From the NCBI GenBank assembly GCA_003210285.1, contig QCVS01000010.1:1-64000 (forward strand): DNA of 64,000 nucleotides, in the 5' to 3' direction. Within the stretch, counting starts at the first letter, position 1; each line of letters starts with the position of its first letter. The notes beneath the pieces are model-generated. The model worked only from the letters and a program-made list of their open reading frames with translations. It did not search any database and had not been told where the DNA came from. The translations under genes and the position numbers were made by a program. This DNA comes from Prochlorococcus sp. AG-686-J21 (GTDB taxonomy: Bacteria > Cyanobacteriota > Cyanobacteriia > PCC-6307 > Cyanobiaceae). This document shows, piece after piece, positions 53,771-62,267 of this stretch.

Positions 53771-55087
53771 ATGAAAGATATAAAATGTCCATCATGTGGA
53801 AAAACTTTCAGAATAGATCCGAGCAGCTTTGAAGAAATACTTCTTCAAATTAAAGACGAAGAATTTAACAAGCAAATAGAGGAAAGGCTTAAACTCGCAG
53901 AAGAAGATAAGAATAAAGGTATAGAAATTGCCAAACAAGAATTAAAAATAAAATTAATGGAAGAAAAGCAAAAAAAAGATTCAAAAATTCAAGACCTTGA
54001 GTCTAAGTTGAATATCTCTGAAGAAAAGAAATTAACTGCATTAAGTGAACTAAAAAATAAAGCAACTAACAAAATCAATTTACTAAATAATGAGGTAATT
54101 AAATTAAAGGAGGATATTGAAAGGCAATCCGTAATTAGTGATTTATCATCAAAAAATAAAGTAATTGAAGCTGTAAATAGTTTAGAAAAAGAAAAAACTT
54201 CATTGTTAAACTCTATTGAAAAAATGAAATTAGAACAATCCATTAACGAGAGGGAAATTGAAGCAAAATTTAAGTACAAAATTACAGAGCGTGATTTGAC
54301 TATTCAAGAACTAAGAGATATGAAATCTAAACTTTCGACAAAGATGGTTGGAGAAACCTTAGAAATACATTGTGAGACTCAATTCAATCTAAATCGAGCT
54401 ACTGCTTTTAAAAATTCATATTTTGAAAAAGATAATGATGCAAGTTCAGGAAGCAAAGGAGACTATATTTTCAGAGAGTTTGATGATAATAAAATTGAAA
54501 TCGTCTCTATCATGTTTGAGATGAAAAACCAAAGTGCTGAAGGTTTTAATAAACGAAAAAATGAAGACTTCTTCAAAGAATTAGACAAAGATAGAACTCA
54601 GAAATCATGCGAATATGCAGTATTGGTTTCTTTATTGGAACCAGAAAGTGAGCTATATAATTCCGGGATAGTAGATGTCTCTTATAAATATCCAAAAATG
54701 TTTGTTATAAGGCCACAATTCTTTCTTCCGATTATTTCTCTTCTAAGAAATGCTTCTTTAGAAACTTTAAAGTATAAAACTCAAATAGATTTAATGAAAC
54801 AAGAGAATTATGACATAACAAATTTTGAAAGTACTCTTGATCAATTCAAAAATGCTGTAGGGAAAAACGTTTCGTTAGCACAGGATAGATTTAATGATGC
54901 AATTTCTGAAATAGATAAATCAATAAGTCATTTACAAAAAACCAAAGAGGCATTACTGATATCTAAAAAACATCTTTTATCTGCGGATAGTAAATCACAA
55001 GATTTAACGGTTAAAAAGTTAACTAAAGATAATCCCACAATGAAGAAGAAATTTAATGATTTAAGAAATAAAGAAGACTTAATATAA
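53771..55087 (+). CDS. DUF2130 protein with a PD-(D/E)xK-like nuclease pattern
   Basis: The 438 aa product starts with a half zinc ribbon (C6-x2-C9, KCPSCGKTF), has a long coiled coil (about 25-185), then a globular domain (about 190-335) and a C-terminal helical region (340-420). In the globular part, GETLE (E198), GDYIF (D231) and FEMKNQ (E250-x-K252) have the order and spacing of a PD-(D/E)xK nuclease core. The DUF2130 assignment is by eye; catalysis is inferred. It is on the same strand as the repair cassette further downstream. Confidence 0.78.
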   Translation: MKDIKCPSCGKTFRIDPSSFEEILLQIKDEEFNKQIEERLKLAEEDKNKGIEIAKQELKIKLMEEKQKKDSKIQDLESKLNISEEKKLTALSELKNKATNKINLLNNEVIKLKEDIERQSVISDLSSKNKVIEAVNSLEKEKTSLLNSIEKMKLEQSINEREIEAKFKYKITERDLTIQELRDMKSKLSTKMVGETLEIHCETQFNLNRATAFKNSYFEKDNDASSGSKGDYIFREFDDNKIEIVSIMFEMKNQSAEGFNKRKNEDFFKELDKDRTQKSCEYAVLVSLLEPESELYNSGIVDVSYKYPKMFVIRPQFFLPIISLLRNASLETLKYKTQIDLMKQENYDITNFESTLDQFKNAVGKNVSLAQDRFNDAISEIDKSISHLQKTKEALLISKKHLLSADSKSQDLTVKKLTKDNPTMKKKFNDLRNKEDLI

Positions 55088-55553: not shown

Positions 55554-55967
55554 ATGAAAATCACTGAGGCCTTAAAATCTCTTGAAAATTCTTGGTCAAG
55601 AGAAGAGATTCTAGTAAAAATAAAGAATGGGGAAGATTCCGAAAAGATAGTAAATGAATTTTGCTCATCTAAAAAACAAGAAATCGAAACACTTACTAAT
55701 TTTATTAAACCAGACGACAAAGTTCTATTAAGTGAAATAGAAAGTTTAGCGAATATAGAGTCGAAATTAATAAATAAAATTAAAAATTATAGTTTTACTA
55801 AAATTGAAACATCAAAAAAAGAAAAAGATCAAAAAAAGATTTCTCAACCAGAACGAAATATATCGTTTGATTTAGGTTTTTTCATGTTGAAATGGAGTAA
55901 TAAATTTGTTTTTATTTCTCTTTTAGCCATCTCAGCAATAGCTTTAACTAAACAAGCGTGGGCTTAA
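55554..55967 (+). CDS. C-terminally anchored helical protein
   Basis: The 137 aa product begins MKITEALKSLENSWSREEIL, with helical acidic sequence to about 70, a Lys-rich linker (KKEKDQKKISQPERN) and a C-terminal membrane helix (about 116-133, KFVFISLLAISAIALT). The cytoplasmic domain with a tail anchor is unusual next to DNA repair genes. The next gene begins 36 nt later. The family is unknown. Confidence 0.62.
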   Translation: MKITEALKSLENSWSREEILVKIKNGEDSEKIVNEFCSSKKQEIETLTNFIKPDDKVLLSEIESLANIESKLINKIKNYSFTKIETSKKEKDQKKISQPERNISFDLGFFMLKWSNKFVFISLLAISAIALTKQAWA

Positions 55968-56003: not shown

Positions 56004-56996
56004 TTGAGAAAGGATAGTTCTTATTTAATTAAATATACAAGTATTGGTCTTTATTGTGAACTAGCCGATGTTTGGATTGATCCGAATAAACCCGTAAAAA
56101 GAGCAATAATTACTCATGCACATATGGATCATTTCACCTTTGGGTGCGATGAATATATTTCAACATATGAAACCGCAATAATTCTAAAAGAGAGAATAGG
56201 AAAAGAAATTAAAATTAAAACTTACGATTATGAAAACGAATTTAAAATTAACGGTGTCAGAATAGCCTTTCATCCTTCAGGACATATCCTTGGATCAAGT
56301 CAAATAAAATTTATTCTTGCTGACGAGAAATGGTTAATTACAGGTGATTTTAAACGGCAAAAAGACGACACTTGCAAAGAATATAAAATAGTAGAGACTG
56401 ATTTTTTAATAAGTGAATCAACCTTTGGGTTGCCAATATTTAAATGGGATGAATCTCACAAAACAGCGTTAGATATTACAAAATGGGTAAATTCCTCCCA
56501 AGAAAAAACATCTATCTTATTTTGTTATTCGCTTGGAAAAGCTCAAAGACTATTGAATGAAATAAGTAAAACAAAATTTAAAAATAATATTTATACTCAT
56601 AGCAGTATTTATAAGATAAATAAATGTTATGAAAAATTAGGAATTGATATTGTAGATACAAAAAAAATTGAACCGAATAAAAATAGTGAGGATCTTAAAG
56701 GCAGTCTAATATTACTTCCACCCGCTTTAAATAAAAGTTCTTCTCTAAAAAATTTCAAGGATAGTCAAACTGGGTTTGCAAGTGGATGGATGTCAATTAG
56801 AGCACTCAGAAAAAGGTCTGGATATGATAAAGGTTTCTCTATCTCAGACCATGCTGATTGGATAGCTATTTTAAGGACAATAAAAGAATCTAAAGCTAAA
56901 AATGTTTTTTTTCATCATGGTGATAGTGAAGCTTTAAATAAATATTTAAAAGAAAAAAATTCGATAAATGTTCTTGAATTTGAATATAAAAAATGA
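56004..56996 (+). CDS. Ligase-associated DNA exonuclease (metallo-beta-lactamase/beta-CASP type)
   Basis: This 330 aa protein has the metal site H38-x-H40-x-D42-H43 (THAHMDHF), SGHILGSSQI, TGDFKRQKDD and a late SDHADW histidine, the layout of the mRNA 3'-processing-factor-like nucleases that accompany bacterial ATP-dependent ligases. The start is a TTG at 56004, with GAGAAAGG overlapping. Its stop overlaps the ligase start (ATGA). It is the first gene of the four-gene repair cassette; an end-trimming role is inferred from that association. Confidence 0.85.
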   Translation: MRKDSSYLIKYTSIGLYCELADVWIDPNKPVKRAIITHAHMDHFTFGCDEYISTYETAIILKERIGKEIKIKTYDYENEFKINGVRIAFHPSGHILGSSQIKFILADEKWLITGDFKRQKDDTCKEYKIVETDFLISESTFGLPIFKWDESHKTALDITKWVNSSQEKTSILFCYSLGKAQRLLNEISKTKFKNNIYTHSSIYKINKCYEKLGIDIVDTKKIEPNKNSEDLKGSLILLPPALNKSSSLKNFKDSQTGFASGWMSIRALRKRSGYDKGFSISDHADWIAILRTIKESKAKNVFFHHGDSEALNKYLKEKNSINVLEFEYKK

Positions 56997-58630
56997 GTCT
57001 AAAAAATTTTTCAGAATTATTTATAGATTTAGATTCTTGTAATAGCACAAATAAAAAGATAGAAATTTTACAAAACTATTTTTTTTCAAATGAGGCTTTA
57101 GAAAATTCATGGACAATATATTTACTTACAGGAAAAAATAATAAGCGATTTATAAGTGGAAGATCCCTTAAAACTTTCTTTTCAGAAATTTATGAATACC
57201 CTTTGTGGTTAATTGATTCTTGTTATTTAAAAGTTGGAGATTCTGCAGAAGTTATATCTCTATTATTAAGGAATATGATCACTGGAAAAAATATAAAATA
57301 TCAAGATGTTTCTTTGAATAGATTATTAGACAAATCTTTTCCAGAGTTATCCATTCTTAAAGGAGATGAGAAGAAGTTAAGAGTAAAAGAAATTTGGGAA
57401 AACATTCCAATAGAAAATCTTCTAGTTATAAATAAAATCCTAACTGGTACTTTTAGATTTGGAGTCTCTATAGGCTTGATAACAAAATCAATAGCAAAGC
57501 TTATTAATCTAGATGAAGCAATAATTTCTCATAGATTAATGGGCGATTTTATTCCCTCTGAAGAATCATATAAATTATTAATAGATAAAAAAATAAATCC
57601 TTCAGAATTAAATTACAAACCTTACCCCTTTCTTCTAGCTAATACTTTTGAAAAAAAAATTATAGATAAATCAATTAACGATTTTCAGTTTGAATGGAAA
57701 TGGGATGGAATCAGAATTCAATTAATAAAAAGGTCAGGAAAAGTTTCAATATGGACAAGAGGTCAGGATTTAGTAAATAAATCTTTCCCTGAATTAGTAG
57801 ATAAAATCTCATTTATCAAAGATGACTTTGTAATAGATGGTGAATTATTAGTCTGGGATTTTAAGCAAAATCTTCCTCTTAATTTCTCTTTGCTTCAAAA
57901 AAGAATTAATAGAAAGGCGCCATCAAGATCAATTCAAAAAACTTTACCTATTATATTTATTGCCTATGATCTTTTAGAAATAAATGGAGAAGATCAAAGA
58001 GTCTCAAATTTAGAAATCAGAAGAAACATTTTGGAAAAACATTTATATAATTGGTTAAATGAAAGTAAAGAAGAATTATCTAATATTTTTAAAATAAGTG
58101 ATTTAATATATCCAAAAAATTGGCAAGAGGTAGAAACTTTTAAAAATAATTCTAGAGATAATGGAACAGAGGGATTAGTTATTAAAAATAAAAAATCAAT
58201 CTACACACCTGGCAGAAAGAAAGGTCTTTGGTGGAAATATAAAGTTGATCCAATGCAACTTGATGCAGTCCTCATTTATGCCAAAGGCGGTAGTGGGATA
58301 AGAGCAGGTTTATATACTGACTATAGTTTTGCTCTTTGGAAAGATGGTGAATTAATCAAATTTGCTAGTGCATATTCTGGATTAAACAACACTGAAATTA
58401 AAGAGTTAGATAGATGGATTAGACAAAACACTATTGATAGGTTTGGACCTGTTAGATCAGTAAGAGCAGAAATGGTCTTCGAAATTTCCTTCGAAAATAT
58501 TCAAATTTCAAAACGTCATAAATCAGGAATTGCTGTAAGATTTCCAAGAATAACTAAATGGAGGAAAGATAAGTTGATTAAAGATGCTGATACCTTGGAA
58601 AACGCTCAGAAATTAATGTTAAATAAATAA
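56993..58630 (+). CDS. ATP-dependent DNA ligase (ligase-associated repair cassette)
   Basis: This 545 aa ligase has an N-terminal DNA-binding domain (about 1-200), the nucleotidyltransferase domain with Lys236 in EWKWDGIRIQ (KxDG motif), FIAYDLLEING, GLVIKNKKSIYTPG, and WWKYKVDP (motif V), then an OB domain ending in RITKWRKDK. It joins nicks using ATP and is additional to the NAD-dependent LigA expected elsewhere in the chromosome. It shares bases with both neighbours (ATGA, TAATG). Confidence 0.92.
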   Translation: MSLKNFSELFIDLDSCNSTNKKIEILQNYFFSNEALENSWTIYLLTGKNNKRFISGRSLKTFFSEIYEYPLWLIDSCYLKVGDSAEVISLLLRNMITGKNIKYQDVSLNRLLDKSFPELSILKGDEKKLRVKEIWENIPIENLLVINKILTGTFRFGVSIGLITKSIAKLINLDEAIISHRLMGDFIPSEESYKLLIDKKINPSELNYKPYPFLLANTFEKKIIDKSINDFQFEWKWDGIRIQLIKRSGKVSIWTRGQDLVNKSFPELVDKISFIKDDFVIDGELLVWDFKQNLPLNFSLLQKRINRKAPSRSIQKTLPIIFIAYDLLEINGEDQRVSNLEIRRNILEKHLYNWLNESKEELSNIFKISDLIYPKNWQEVETFKNNSRDNGTEGLVIKNKKSIYTPGRKKGLWWKYKVDPMQLDAVLIYAKGGSGIRAGLYTDYSFALWKDGELIKFASAYSGLNNTEIKELDRWIRQNTIDRFGPVRSVRAEMVFEISFENIQISKRHKSGIAVRFPRITKWRKDKLIKDADTLENAQKLMLNK

Positions 58631-61107
58631 TGGAAAGCTTTATAAATAAAAATAAAATTAAGAATATAGAAAAATTTTTTTATAAAAATGGTTGGGAACC
58701 TCTGCCATATCAAATTGAATCATGGAAAGCATATTTGAATGGAGAAAATGGAATCATTCAGGTTCCTACAGGATGCGGTAAAACTTATGCAGCTTTAATG
58801 GGACCTCTTTCGAAATTAAAAGATTCCACAAAACCAACTGGATTATGCATTTTACTAATAACTCCATTAAAAGCATTAAGTAGAGATTTAAAAAATGCAG
58901 TATATTTAGCCGCTCAATTTTTTAATCAAGAAATAACAGTTGGAATCAGAAATGGTGATACAAACCCATATGAAAAGAAGAAGCAAATACTTAAACCTCC
59001 AAATATTCTAATAACGACTCCAGAATCACTTTCTCTCCTCTTATCTAATAAAGAATCTAAAAAAATATTTAGTAATATATTTTCAATAATTATTGATGAG
59101 TGGCACGAGTTAATGGGTAGTAAAAGAGGTAATCAATCTGAATTATTACTAAGTTGGCTGAGAGGAAATAAAAAAGATTTACAAATTTGGGGAATGTCTG
59201 CCACTATCGGTAATATTACAGAAGCAGCAAGAGCTATTGTTGGAATAAAAGGGGAACTACCAACGGTAATAAGTACTAATATTCAAAAAGAAATTGAAAT
59301 CCTTAGTGTTTTACCTGAAGAAGAAACAACCTTTCCATGGAGTGGACATTTAGGAATTAGGAGTTATTCTCTACTTCTCAAATTATTAGATAAAAACAAA
59401 AGTACACTACTATTCACTAACACTAGGAATCAGTCTGAGAGATGGTATCAATGCTTAAGATTCTGTCTACCAGAAATGGAAGATAAGATTTCTTTACATC
59501 ATGGGTCATTGGATAAAGATGAGAGAAAGATAGTTGAGGATGGGGTTAAAAACGGATCTATAAAATGGGTTGTCTGCACAAGCTCATTAGATTTAGGTAT
59601 TGACTTTCAACCTGTTGATCAAATTGTACAAATAGGAAGTGCTAAAAACTTAGCTCGACTTATTCAAAGGGCAGGGAGAAGTGCTCATAGACCTGGAGGA
59701 AAGTCAAAAATAATTTTTATGCCCACTAACTCATTAGAATTACTCGAAATTAGTGCCATGAGGAGAATAATAAAAAGTGGGGTATCTGAAGAAATTAAGC
59801 TTCCTGAATTATCTTTTGATGTACTTCTTCAACATCTCGTTAGTTTGGCTTGTGGACCAGGTTTTAATCCCATCACTGAAAAAGAAAGAATTAAAGATTG
59901 CTGGAGTTATAGAAATCTAAGAGATCAAGATTGGGATTGGTGTATTGATTTTTTGGAGTATGGAGGAAAGTGTTTGAAAGCTTATCCAAAATATAAAAAG
60001 ATAGAAAGAGAAAAATTAAAAGGGGATGAAAATAACTTCAACTATTTTGTAAAAGATAAATCTTTAATAAGGATGCATAAGTTTAATATTGGAACAATAA
60101 CAAGCGATAAGTTTATTAATGTTAAATATTTAAAAGGGAAATCATTAGGCAATTTAGAAGAAAACTTTGCTAGTAAATTAAAATCAGGTGATACTTTTTA
60201 CTTCGGGGGCAAAATGCTCGAATTTATAAAAATTAGAGATATGACTTTATACGTAAAAAAATCTTCCAAAAAAAGTTCGTTAATCCCAGCATGGGTGGGA
60301 GGTCAAATGGCTATCTCTGATCTTTTAAGTGAAAATTTAAGAAGTGAAATAGATATTTGCAATAACTTAGAAAATGAAGATGAATTTCTTAATAAAGAAT
60401 TAAATTCATTAATTCCAATTTTAAAAAAACAGAAAGATCTTTCAGATATTCCACAAAGGAATCAACTACTTATTGAAATCTATAAAACTAAAGAGTTAAC
60501 AAGTCTTTTTGCTTTTACACTTGATGGTAAATTTGTTAATGAAGGAATTGCCTTTCTGTGGGCATTAAGGTTTGCTAATAAAAAACAATCTACATTTAGT
60601 ATTTCTGCAAATGATTTTGGATTTAGCTTAACCACCTCAGAAAATTATGACTTTTCAATTATTGAAAAAGAATTTTCTTATTTTATAGAAAAAAATAACT
60701 TGGATGAAGATATAGAAAATGCAATAAATTTTTCAGAATTAACAAAGAGAAGATTTAAAAACATTGCTCAAATTAGTGGATTAGTAAATCAAAATAATCC
60801 CACCAAAACAAAAAGCTCATCGCAACTTCAAATAAGTTCAAGTCTTTTTTATGATGTTTTTACTCGATATGAAGAAGGTCATCTGCTAATCAAACAAGCA
60901 CATGAAGAAGTAAAAGAGTATCAATTAGAAAATAAGCGAATTACTAATTCTTTAGAAAGATTATCTAATATAAAAATAATATTAAACGAGACTAAAACTC
61001 CAAGTCCATTTGCTTTTCCTTTATTAGTTGAAAGACTTAAAAACACATTAAGCAATGAATCTATAGAAAAAAGAGTTGAAAAACTTATAAAAAAATATAA
61101 TAGTTAA
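58630..61107 (+). CDS. Lhr-like DEXH helicase (ligase-associated)
   Basis: This 825 aa helicase has the Q motif PYQIESWKAYL, Walker A PTGCGKT (46-52), the DEWH box (156-159), SATIG, and motif VI QRAGRSAHRPG, followed by the Lhr-core winged helix and a DUF4011-like end. It is shorter than the full-length Lhr and matches the 'Lhr core' found with these ligases. It starts on the ligase stop (TAATG) and ends directly before the phosphoesterase. Confidence 0.92.
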   Translation: MESFINKNKIKNIEKFFYKNGWEPLPYQIESWKAYLNGENGIIQVPTGCGKTYAALMGPLSKLKDSTKPTGLCILLITPLKALSRDLKNAVYLAAQFFNQEITVGIRNGDTNPYEKKKQILKPPNILITTPESLSLLLSNKESKKIFSNIFSIIIDEWHELMGSKRGNQSELLLSWLRGNKKDLQIWGMSATIGNITEAARAIVGIKGELPTVISTNIQKEIEILSVLPEEETTFPWSGHLGIRSYSLLLKLLDKNKSTLLFTNTRNQSERWYQCLRFCLPEMEDKISLHHGSLDKDERKIVEDGVKNGSIKWVVCTSSLDLGIDFQPVDQIVQIGSAKNLARLIQRAGRSAHRPGGKSKIIFMPTNSLELLEISAMRRIIKSGVSEEIKLPELSFDVLLQHLVSLACGPGFNPITEKERIKDCWSYRNLRDQDWDWCIDFLEYGGKCLKAYPKYKKIEREKLKGDENNFNYFVKDKSLIRMHKFNIGTITSDKFINVKYLKGKSLGNLEENFASKLKSGDTFYFGGKMLEFIKIRDMTLYVKKSSKKSSLIPAWVGGQMAISDLLSENLRSEIDICNNLENEDEFLNKELNSLIPILKKQKDLSDIPQRNQLLIEIYKTKELTSLFAFTLDGKFVNEGIAFLWALRFANKKQSTFSISANDFGFSLTTSENYDFSIIEKEFSYFIEKNNLDEDIENAINFSELTKRRFKNIAQISGLVNQNNPTKTKSSSQLQISSSLFYDVFTRYEEGHLLIKQAHEEVKEYQLENKRITNSLERLSNIKIILNETKTPSPFAFPLLVERLKNTLSNESIEKRVEKLIKKYNS

Positions 61108-61752
61108 ATGCAAAAAATGTCTTTTTCAATAAGTTGGGGGAATTCATCACTAAAGATGCTCTCATCAAAAGCATTACTTTTGCCTCAAACAAATGAACTA
61201 TTAATATGTGATATTCATCTCGGTAAAGCAGAATATTTTCAGCAGAATGGGATTCCTCTTACGAATAATTCAGATGAACAAAACTTATTAAGCATAAAAA
61301 ATATTGTAAAAAATAATAACCCTAATAAATTAATTATTTTAGGAGATTTATTTCATAGTAAATATTCAATAAGTGAATCTCTAAAAAGTAAAGTAGAAAA
61401 TCTTTCAGAATCATTAAATATTAAAATTGAACTAATAATTGGTAATCATGATATCGGGTGCAAAGTCAAAAATATAAGCTTTCTTGAATATAAAAGATCT
61501 AGTAATTTTATATTTAGTCACGAGCCAATAGGTAAATCCGAAAATAACATTTTAAATATTTGCGGACACTATCATCCAAAAACATTTTTAAAAAATTCAA
61601 AAGATAAGTTATCCTTTAAATGTTTTGCTATGGATGAAAAAAATAATATATTATACCTCCCAGCTTTTGGAGATCTCACAGGAGGTTATCAATGTAAGAA
61701 TTCATTCAAAAAATGGGCAATTATTTCTGAAAAAGAAATTATTGCAATTTGA
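61108..61752 (+). CDS. Ligase-associated metallophosphoesterase (PdeM-like)
   Basis: This 214 aa calcineurin-like phosphoesterase has DIHLGKAEYFQQNGIPL (first metal motif), ILGDLFHSK, GNHDIG, and CGHYHPK, all metal ligands of the fold. It may clean blocked DNA ends or act as a nuclease. It begins at the base after the helicase stop, with a possible second Met (MSFSIS) 9 nt later. It is the fourth gene of the cassette. Confidence 0.88.
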   Translation: MQKMSFSISWGNSSLKMLSSKALLLPQTNELLICDIHLGKAEYFQQNGIPLTNNSDEQNLLSIKNIVKNNNPNKLIILGDLFHSKYSISESLKSKVENLSESLNIKIELIIGNHDIGCKVKNISFLEYKRSSNFIFSHEPIGKSENNILNICGHYHPKTFLKNSKDKLSFKCFAMDEKNNILYLPAFGDLTGGYQCKNSFKKWAIISEKEIIAI

Positions 61753-61958: not shown

Positions 61959-62267
61959 ATGAAAAAATTAATAACTATTCTTATATTTCAAGTTTTGTTA
62001 ATGCCCTTGGGACTAAATGCTAATGAAAACTTTTCTGTTGAGATTGAAGCCCTTACATTAGTAATGGAGCAATATAACAAAGATATTGATATTGAAGACA
62101 AAGCTGAGCTAGAACTAAACAACAAAAAGTCTAGTTATATGGCTCTTAAACAAGATGAATGCAATGCTACTGTAAAAGTCACTGAGAAAACAGGCTTAGA
62201 AATTGTTGGAGCTGAATCGTTCGACGTAAATGTATGCAAGAAAGAAGTCAATAAAGTTATAAATTAA
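61959..62267 (+). CDS. Small exported protein
   Basis: The 102 aa product has a signal peptide (ITILIFQVLLMPLGLNA, cleavage near residue 21), an acidic mature part (SVEIEALTLVMEQYNKDIDIEDKAEL) and two cysteines (DECNAT, NVCKKE) that may pair. It is 206 nt after the repair cassette and probably separate. The family is unknown. Confidence 0.62.
   Translation: MKKLITILIFQVLLMPLGLNANENFSVEIEALTLVMEQYNKDIDIEDKAELELNNKKSSYMALKQDECNATVKVTEKTGLEIVGAESFDVNVCKKEVNKVIN

Follow-up and report, generated by a model that had tools for sequence, protein, structure and literature searches.

The ligase-associated cassette of a Prochlorococcus genome

We analysed a stretch of 64,000 nucleotides of Prochlorococcus sp. 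AG-686-J21 (contig QCVS01000010.1, positions 1 to 64,000; hereafter the window), in which four contiguous genes on the same strand encode an exonuclease, an ATP-dependent DNA ligase, a helicase and the phosphoesterase PdeM, in that order (Table 1). The original prediction had read these genes as a complete ligase-associated repair cassette, joined into one tight unit and retained in a very small genome that should also have the NAD-dependent ligase LigA. Employing NCBIfam models with their curated cut-offs, together with Pfam, we confirmed that the cassette at 56004-61752 is a real ligase-associated set, as first observed: all four proteins pass the cut-offs of TIGR04120-04123. Pfam assigned the ligase A_N, A_M and A_C domains (PF04675, PF01068 and PF04679) to the ligase, DEAD, Helicase_C, WH_Lhr and DEAD_assoc to the helicase and Metallophos to PdeM; a Lactamase_B match of low strength was also found for the cassette. 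The junctions are an ATGA overlap, a TAATG overlap and a zero gap, just as claimed (taken from the list of open reading frames, with the DNA itself read at the first junction). The genome is 99% complete and, at 1,577,724 bp, indeed very small; the sampled genomes of its genus (g1), which we take to be the high-light (HL) group of Prochlorococcus, range from 0.8 to 1.8 Mb.

Table 1. Positions of the cassette genes, their neighbours and the second ligase of the window genome (positions refer to the window unless stated otherwise)
Feature	Position	Strand	Size	Remarks
Beta-CASP/metallo-beta-lactamase (MBL) exonuclease (TIGR04122)	56004..56996	+	330 aa	TTG start; 382.2 bits vs cut-off 325
ATP-dependent DNA ligase, LigB type (TIGR04120)	56993..58630	+	545 aa	489.3 bits vs cut-off 400
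Lhr-Core DEXH helicase (TIGR04121)	58630..61107	+	825 aa	1019.6 bits vs cut-off 850
Metallophosphoesterase (MPE) PdeM (TIGR04123)	61108..61752	+	214 aa	168.4 bits vs cut-off 150
137-aa protein	55554..55967	+	137 aa	Ends 36 bases before the exonuclease; matches neither NCBIfam nor Pfam
Right-flank gene, site marker	61959..62267	+	102 aa	18/18 cassette loci, 6/6 cassette-free crown genomes examined
DUF2130 protein	53771-55087			Left neighbour in high-light loci
Pmar-Lig type ATP-dependent ligase	G000 contig 1: 270256-271584		443 aa	Outside the window

In its four families, their order and the tight junctions, the cassette resembles the known ligase-associated DNA damage response cluster (LigB/Lhr-Core/MPE/MBL). 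Comamonas endophytica and Ideonella dechloratans carry plasmid loci with this gene order and similarly tight junctions, and the window ligase and helicase are 36-39% and 36-38% identical to the copies encoded there. Taken alone, the cassette is an ordinary, known system; it differs from the known cluster in that it sits in a genome without full-length LigA.

The arrangement was compared in 18 further loci of the genus, all of which were picked from cassette carriers and therefore carry no information on frequency. The four genes stand in identical order beside an identical right flank in every one of them, and the left flank is identical in 17, the remaining locus (L039) beginning at a contig edge. 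Thus, the arrangement is not a product of chance. Spacing at most junctions falls in the range from -4 to +9 bases; exceptions are a 55-base gap in L040, an -11 overlap in L049 and the broken helicase frame of L036 (1 of the 18 compared loci). We also inspected the motifs that we take to be the catalytic signatures of these families. The exonucleases contain THAHMDH, HILGS and DHAD (18/18 sequences), the ligases KxDGxR (19/19) and the helicases PTGxGKT, DExH and QRxGR (18/18), while DxHxG, GDxxH, GNHD and GHxH were present in 18 and HxP in 17 of 18 PdeM sequences.

Median ratios of nonsynonymous to synonymous substitution (dN/dS), calculated without L036 and without pairs with dS <=0.05 or >=1.5, were 0.156 for the exonuclease, 0.163 for the ligase, 0.101 for the helicase and 0.182 for the PdeM gene (mpe). 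For comparison, dnaB, mnmG and valS gave 0.021-0.100 and the second ligase gene described below gave 0.10. Since the profiles pass, the motifs are intact and dN/dS is low, the cassette is under purifying selection and probably functional as a unit. Neither of the two outcomes that the original prediction had named as telling against it, a failing profile or an inactive gene, occurred, as far as the profile scores and catalytic motifs of the four window genes indicate. An end-joining task, which had also been proposed, is not favoured: Ku was detected in none of the 16 genomes searched, window genome included, and classical non-homologous end joining by Ku/LigD was rejected as a role for the cassette.

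The ligA locus, Pmar-Lig and its viral relatives

The expectation that this genome should also have LigA did not hold. In a TIGR00575 search, LigA scored over the cut-off in 24 of 30 chosen genomes, comprising all low-light, Synechococcus and other cyanobacterial genomes and the deep-branching G135. Full-length LigA was not found in the window genome (G000), in G015, which is the closest complete genome (95% identity between the cassette ligases), or in G022, G041, G028 and G042. These six genomes contain just adenylation-domain frames of about 220-263 aa (220-254 aa in the window genome) and short HhH-type matches in other proteins. Of the near-complete genomes of the family (at least 90% complete), 185 of 271 have LigA over the cut-off, distributed as 3 of 87 in the genus versus 182 of 184 in the remaining family; here and below, counts of cassette ligase, LigA and Pmar-Lig among the 87 are our own tallies of listed rows. 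The three carriers are G257, G273 and G256, the last scored positive on an E-value of 1.7e-152 over several pieces. For the other 84 genomes the best E-value was about 1e-22 or worse, or no match was obtained.

Adenylation-only proteins of the NAD-dependent ligase type (PF01653), about 250 aa long, were observed at L111:1177-1932 (-) and L115:1291-2040 (+). They show no OB, zinc finger, HhH or BRCT match, occur as one or two frames per genome in six HL genomes, and carry the lysine motif KIHG in one copy and KIDG in the other. We judge them to be incomplete as ligases. The accessible part of PMC11357015 reports viral families restricted to certain low-light strains, one of them an NAD-dependent ligase family, in line with the LigA distribution. 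PMC2663038 uses the name 'ligA' for an S-phase gene in MED4.

Outside the window, the same genome encodes a second ATP-dependent ligase, a full-length relative (residues 3-443, E 1.2e-240, PDB 6rau chain) of Pmar-Lig from Prochlorococcus marinus (PDB 6RAU/6RAR/6RAS/6RCE; PMC6698739). Of the 87 near-complete genus genomes, 80 encode Pmar-Lig, whereas none of the 184 genomes from the remaining family does; among 244 genomes drawn across the phylum it occurred in ten, all of this genus. The seven genus genomes without it are the three LigA carriers and four drafts (91-94% complete) with neither enzyme. Pmar-Lig and LigA were never found together (0/87). The portion of PMC6698739 available presents Pmar-Lig as additional to the replicative NAD enzyme, whereas here the two exclude each other and share one locus.

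At this locus, genes follow the order rplI-dnaB-mnmG-...-139-aa gene-LigA-DedA-like-valS as far as each stretch reaches (rplI, dnaB, mnmG, valS and DedA were named by eye, not by family call). LigA holds the slot in seven loci from low-light and deep-branching high-light lineages (G135, G273, G257, G151, G148, G318 and G304), while Pmar-Lig holds the identical slot in six crown high-light loci (G000, G015, G022, G041, G042 and G262). Both genes lie on the same strand, with a gap to the upstream gene of 9-17 bases for Pmar-Lig versus 10-37 for LigA, and no LigA debris was found in the Pmar-Lig loci read. The best 80 of 193 named-genome relatives of a viral ligase came from 77 Prochlorococcus, two Synechococcaceae and one Neomarinimicrobiota; all 79 cyanobacterial loci among them have both ligA flanks and no LigA. 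In a DnaB/MnmG/ValS tree of 15 genomes, the LigA carriers G135, G273 and G257 are sister to six Pmar-Lig genomes (98/97, 97/99), a position that suggests a swap from ligA to Pmar-Lig most likely on the crown high-light stem.

For 11 genomes, of which nine are at least 99% complete, our three probes revealed no complete DNA ligase other than Pmar-Lig, neither LigA nor cassette ligase being detected (G042, G253, G254, G262, G023, G264, G270, G002, G277, G010 and G286). This is the main reason why we propose a replicative role for Pmar-Lig, which its position in the ligA locus and the mutual exclusion with LigA also suggest. A nick-sealing activity similar to that of T4 ligase, without joining of blunt ends, is reported for the enzyme in the available text of PMC6698739 and fits such a role.

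Viral contigs are a rich source of Pmar-Lig relatives: a first query gave 434 and a second at least 595 (not dereplicated), and the best 80 of each were used. Among these, contigs from IMG/VR reached up to 78% identity to HL copies; the top-ranked row from cultured phages was 36.7% identical to Pmar-Lig. The phage-family profile phrog_114 matches Pmar-Lig with E 1.2e-87, but in contrast to phage ATP-dependent ligases (phrog_114; SPO1 gp32.95) the host copy is chromosomal and lies in the ligA slot. On the viral contigs read, the neighbours were phrog_11903 (a PHROG of unknown function), partial virion/tail-fibre matches, a 2-oxoglutarate oxygenase and a ClpP-type protease; the host genes that flank ligA were absent. 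A terminase profile matched 2 of the 25 records tested and gave no hit in 23. One of the two, a record of 267 kb, also contains tail sheath, tail tube and UvsX genes; the others are fragments unproven as viral. Outside the genus, the close relatives found so far are viral contigs and one contig of a metagenome-assembled genome. The latter, a 335-kb Neomarinimicrobiota contig (L346, PBPT01000016.1), carries a ligase with the same protein sequence as the one on viral contig L233, and is perhaps a misbinned large phage contig or a prophage.

In a ligase tree from which rows at least 90% identical were removed and a few named HL rows restored (192 to 72 rows), the HL copies form one clade (100/100) that adjoins viral L161 (95/83) among viral rows; the bootstrap had not settled. 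We infer a phage origin of Pmar-Lig from these relationships, the phage-to-host direction not being fixed by them.

Distribution and loss of the cassette

The cassette ligase is near full length in 72 of the 87 near-complete genus genomes. Two of the other 15 have a partial gene (G267, and G119, whose contig ends inside it), 11 give a weak match only and two give nothing; the weak match in the 11 is the other ligase, Pmar-Lig. Among 101 sampled genus genomes of all qualities, the helicase, exonuclease and PdeM exceeded their cut-offs in 68, 71 and 65, respectively. Family-wide, 16 of 34 genera have a cassette-ligase match. It is absent from all nine genomes of g35-g41, which presumably represent low-light Prochlorococcus, and g55-g57 are likewise not among the matches. 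In the four drafts checked (G055, G029, G001 and G119), seemingly partial cassettes run to contig edges.

We read the cassette site in six of the 11 weak-match genomes; the remaining five (G002, G023, G277, G010 and G264) have only part of the left marker gene or none of it. In all six, the DUF2130 gene, an IF2_N-like gene, the 102-aa gene and pstB remain. G262 retains a frameshifted exonuclease start beside the end of PdeM, with ligase and helicase deleted (L324:10017-10767), G254 and G253 retain PdeM debris, and G042, G270 and G286 show a clean deletion. That is, at least three different scars exist among six genomes, which need not equal six independent losses. That the unit was removed or broken in each case, though in different ways, is compatible with a joint importance of the four genes. 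Of two deep-branching genomes, G257 has the entire cassette at this site and G273 has none. The G262 scar may help in dating the loss.

Occurrence and depth-linked distribution of the cassette in Prochlorococcus are already in print, so that its distribution is partly known. According to the accessible part of PMC9040837, a DNA ligase, a DEXH box helicase and other repair genes are missing from most deep-group HLII genomes and present in the surface group. Because of this surface/deep and high-light/low-light distribution, our best guess for the selective force on the cassette is ultraviolet (UV) or photo-oxidative damage. The light or UV link of the original prediction has circumstantial support in the presence of the cassette ligase in most of the genus, its absence from the nine g35-g41 genomes and the published depth pattern.

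PMC3940434 places the loss of an ATP-dependent ligase on the stem leading to all Prochlorococcus; the HL copies could then be accounted for by a regain or by an orthologue that was overlooked. HL groups with other cyanobacteria in our cassette ligase tree, and lies nearer to genus g67, on long branches, in the helicase tree. Both trees exclude L001-L030 (short windows, partly from the same genomes), ligase rows below 480 aa and helicase rows below 700 aa. An approximately unbiased (AU) test rejected a group of HL with four marine-Synechococcus-like rows (p 0.003). Because a control run on LigA turned down a comparable group as well (p 0.0145), this rejection does not separate regain from vertical descent. 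No relatives of the cassette ligase were found in viral contigs with a close-relative query, and a search of cultured phages at E 1e-40 gave no relative of the helicase.

The 137-aa gene upstream adjoins the cassette in 17 loci; the one remaining of the 18 stops at a contig edge. It is gone together with the cassette in five of the six cassette-free crown genomes read and retained in G262, and the deep-branching G273 has it without a cassette. The protein is a possible fifth member or associate, and we claim no membership for it. Homologues of the DUF2130 protein, 49-53% identical, occur in four low-light-type genomes, where the other flank genes do not accompany them. Near the cassette neighbourhood, the segment 48001-54000 has 22-26% GC and few long open reading frames.

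Interpretation and competing explanations

We consider it probable, at roughly three in four, that a phage-type ligase displaced LigA at its own locus and now seals Okazaki fragments, and that the cassette is a separate, selected repair operon. Worded more broadly, the reading holds that crown HL Prochlorococcus, as a free-living bacterial lineage, replicates its chromosome without LigA, a viral ATP-dependent ligase having overwritten ligA and the cassette ligase being kept or lost by niche; for this we estimate about 0.7, lowered from 0.72 because a third ligase type in some strains is mentioned in print. At the base of crown high-light Prochlorococcus, the phage-type ligase would have taken the exact place of ligA and most likely took over the sealing of Okazaki fragments, while the cassette ligase would serve repair separately, in a cell that has no LigA, and could be lost. 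Judging from the activities of relatives, as given in the accessible parts of PMC7437997 and PMC8301817, Lhr-Core would open damaged DNA 3'-to-5', PdeM/MPE would nick the exposed single strands, the beta-CASP exonuclease may trim (a guess for this step) and the LigB-type ligase would seal. The substrate, lesions or stalled forks, is likewise a guess.

Several observations weigh against this reading. The cassette is dispensable, given that 15 of the 87 near-complete genomes, two with partial genes, have no near-full-length cassette ligase. The adenylation-only NAD-ligase proteins exist in HL genomes, and the positions of weak LigA matches were seen in six crown genomes only. In a 38-row AU test, placing all viral rows on one side was equally good or better (p-AU 0.505). 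The available text of PMC6698739 gives some strains three ATP-dependent ligases besides the replicative NAD-dependent enzyme, and that of PMC12133292 records for P. marinus a 'Lig W' outside its classes; one more ligase may therefore escape our three probes.

The p-AU value and an unsure rooting also leave room for viruses having taken the ligase from Prochlorococcus, and the nearest viral row, L161, is merely a 4.1-kb contig. We regard this direction as unlikely. All seven sister-lineage loci read have LigA rather than Pmar-Lig at the locus, so the host Pmar-Lig gene is the newcomer there; moreover, the at least 595 related viral stretches (not dereplicated) stand against one of 103 cyanobacterial genera sampled, and a phage-family profile recognizes the protein. 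That the cassette is drifting to loss without a present function is improbable: six cassette-free crown genomes with at least three scars, and an mpe dN/dS of up to 0.52 in one pair, would be expected under drift, yet median dN/dS is 0.10-0.18, the catalytic motifs are kept and the four seemingly partial cassettes checked end at contig edges.

Two further explanations concern the division of labour among the ligases. As a three-domain ATP ligase that is near full length in most of the genus, the cassette ligase might itself have replaced LigA in replication. This is very unlikely, given that it was not found in the 11 LigA-less Pmar-Lig genomes, that cassette remnants persist at the site in three genomes and that the ligA slot holds Pmar-Lig instead. 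The other explanation, in which the usual LigA serves replication and the cassette is an accessory set for repair, describes many family genomes outside the genus, where cassette ligase and LigA co-occur, and also the deep-branching G135 and G257. For the window genome it is hardly credible, since full-length LigA is missing there and from nearly all near-complete genomes of the genus, and a different ligase occupies its place. In the literature searched, outside which many subscription papers lie, we found neither a report of LigA being absent from HL Prochlorococcus nor one placing Pmar-Lig at the ligA locus; we claim no priority.

High-light Prochlorococcus are among the most abundant phototrophs. 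If displacement of LigA by Pmar-Lig is correct, the LigA rule would have a large natural exception, LigA being described as the essential Okazaki ligase of bacteria in the accessible part of PMC12133292, and ligase choice would be an evolvable trait. A phage-type enzyme would then carry out a step at the core of cellular replication. What the swap might bring, namely a smaller protein, no zinc finger and the use of ATP rather than NAD, is a matter of speculation. The role of the cassette is open to direct testing, since genomes that have it and genomes that lack it at the same site occur naturally.

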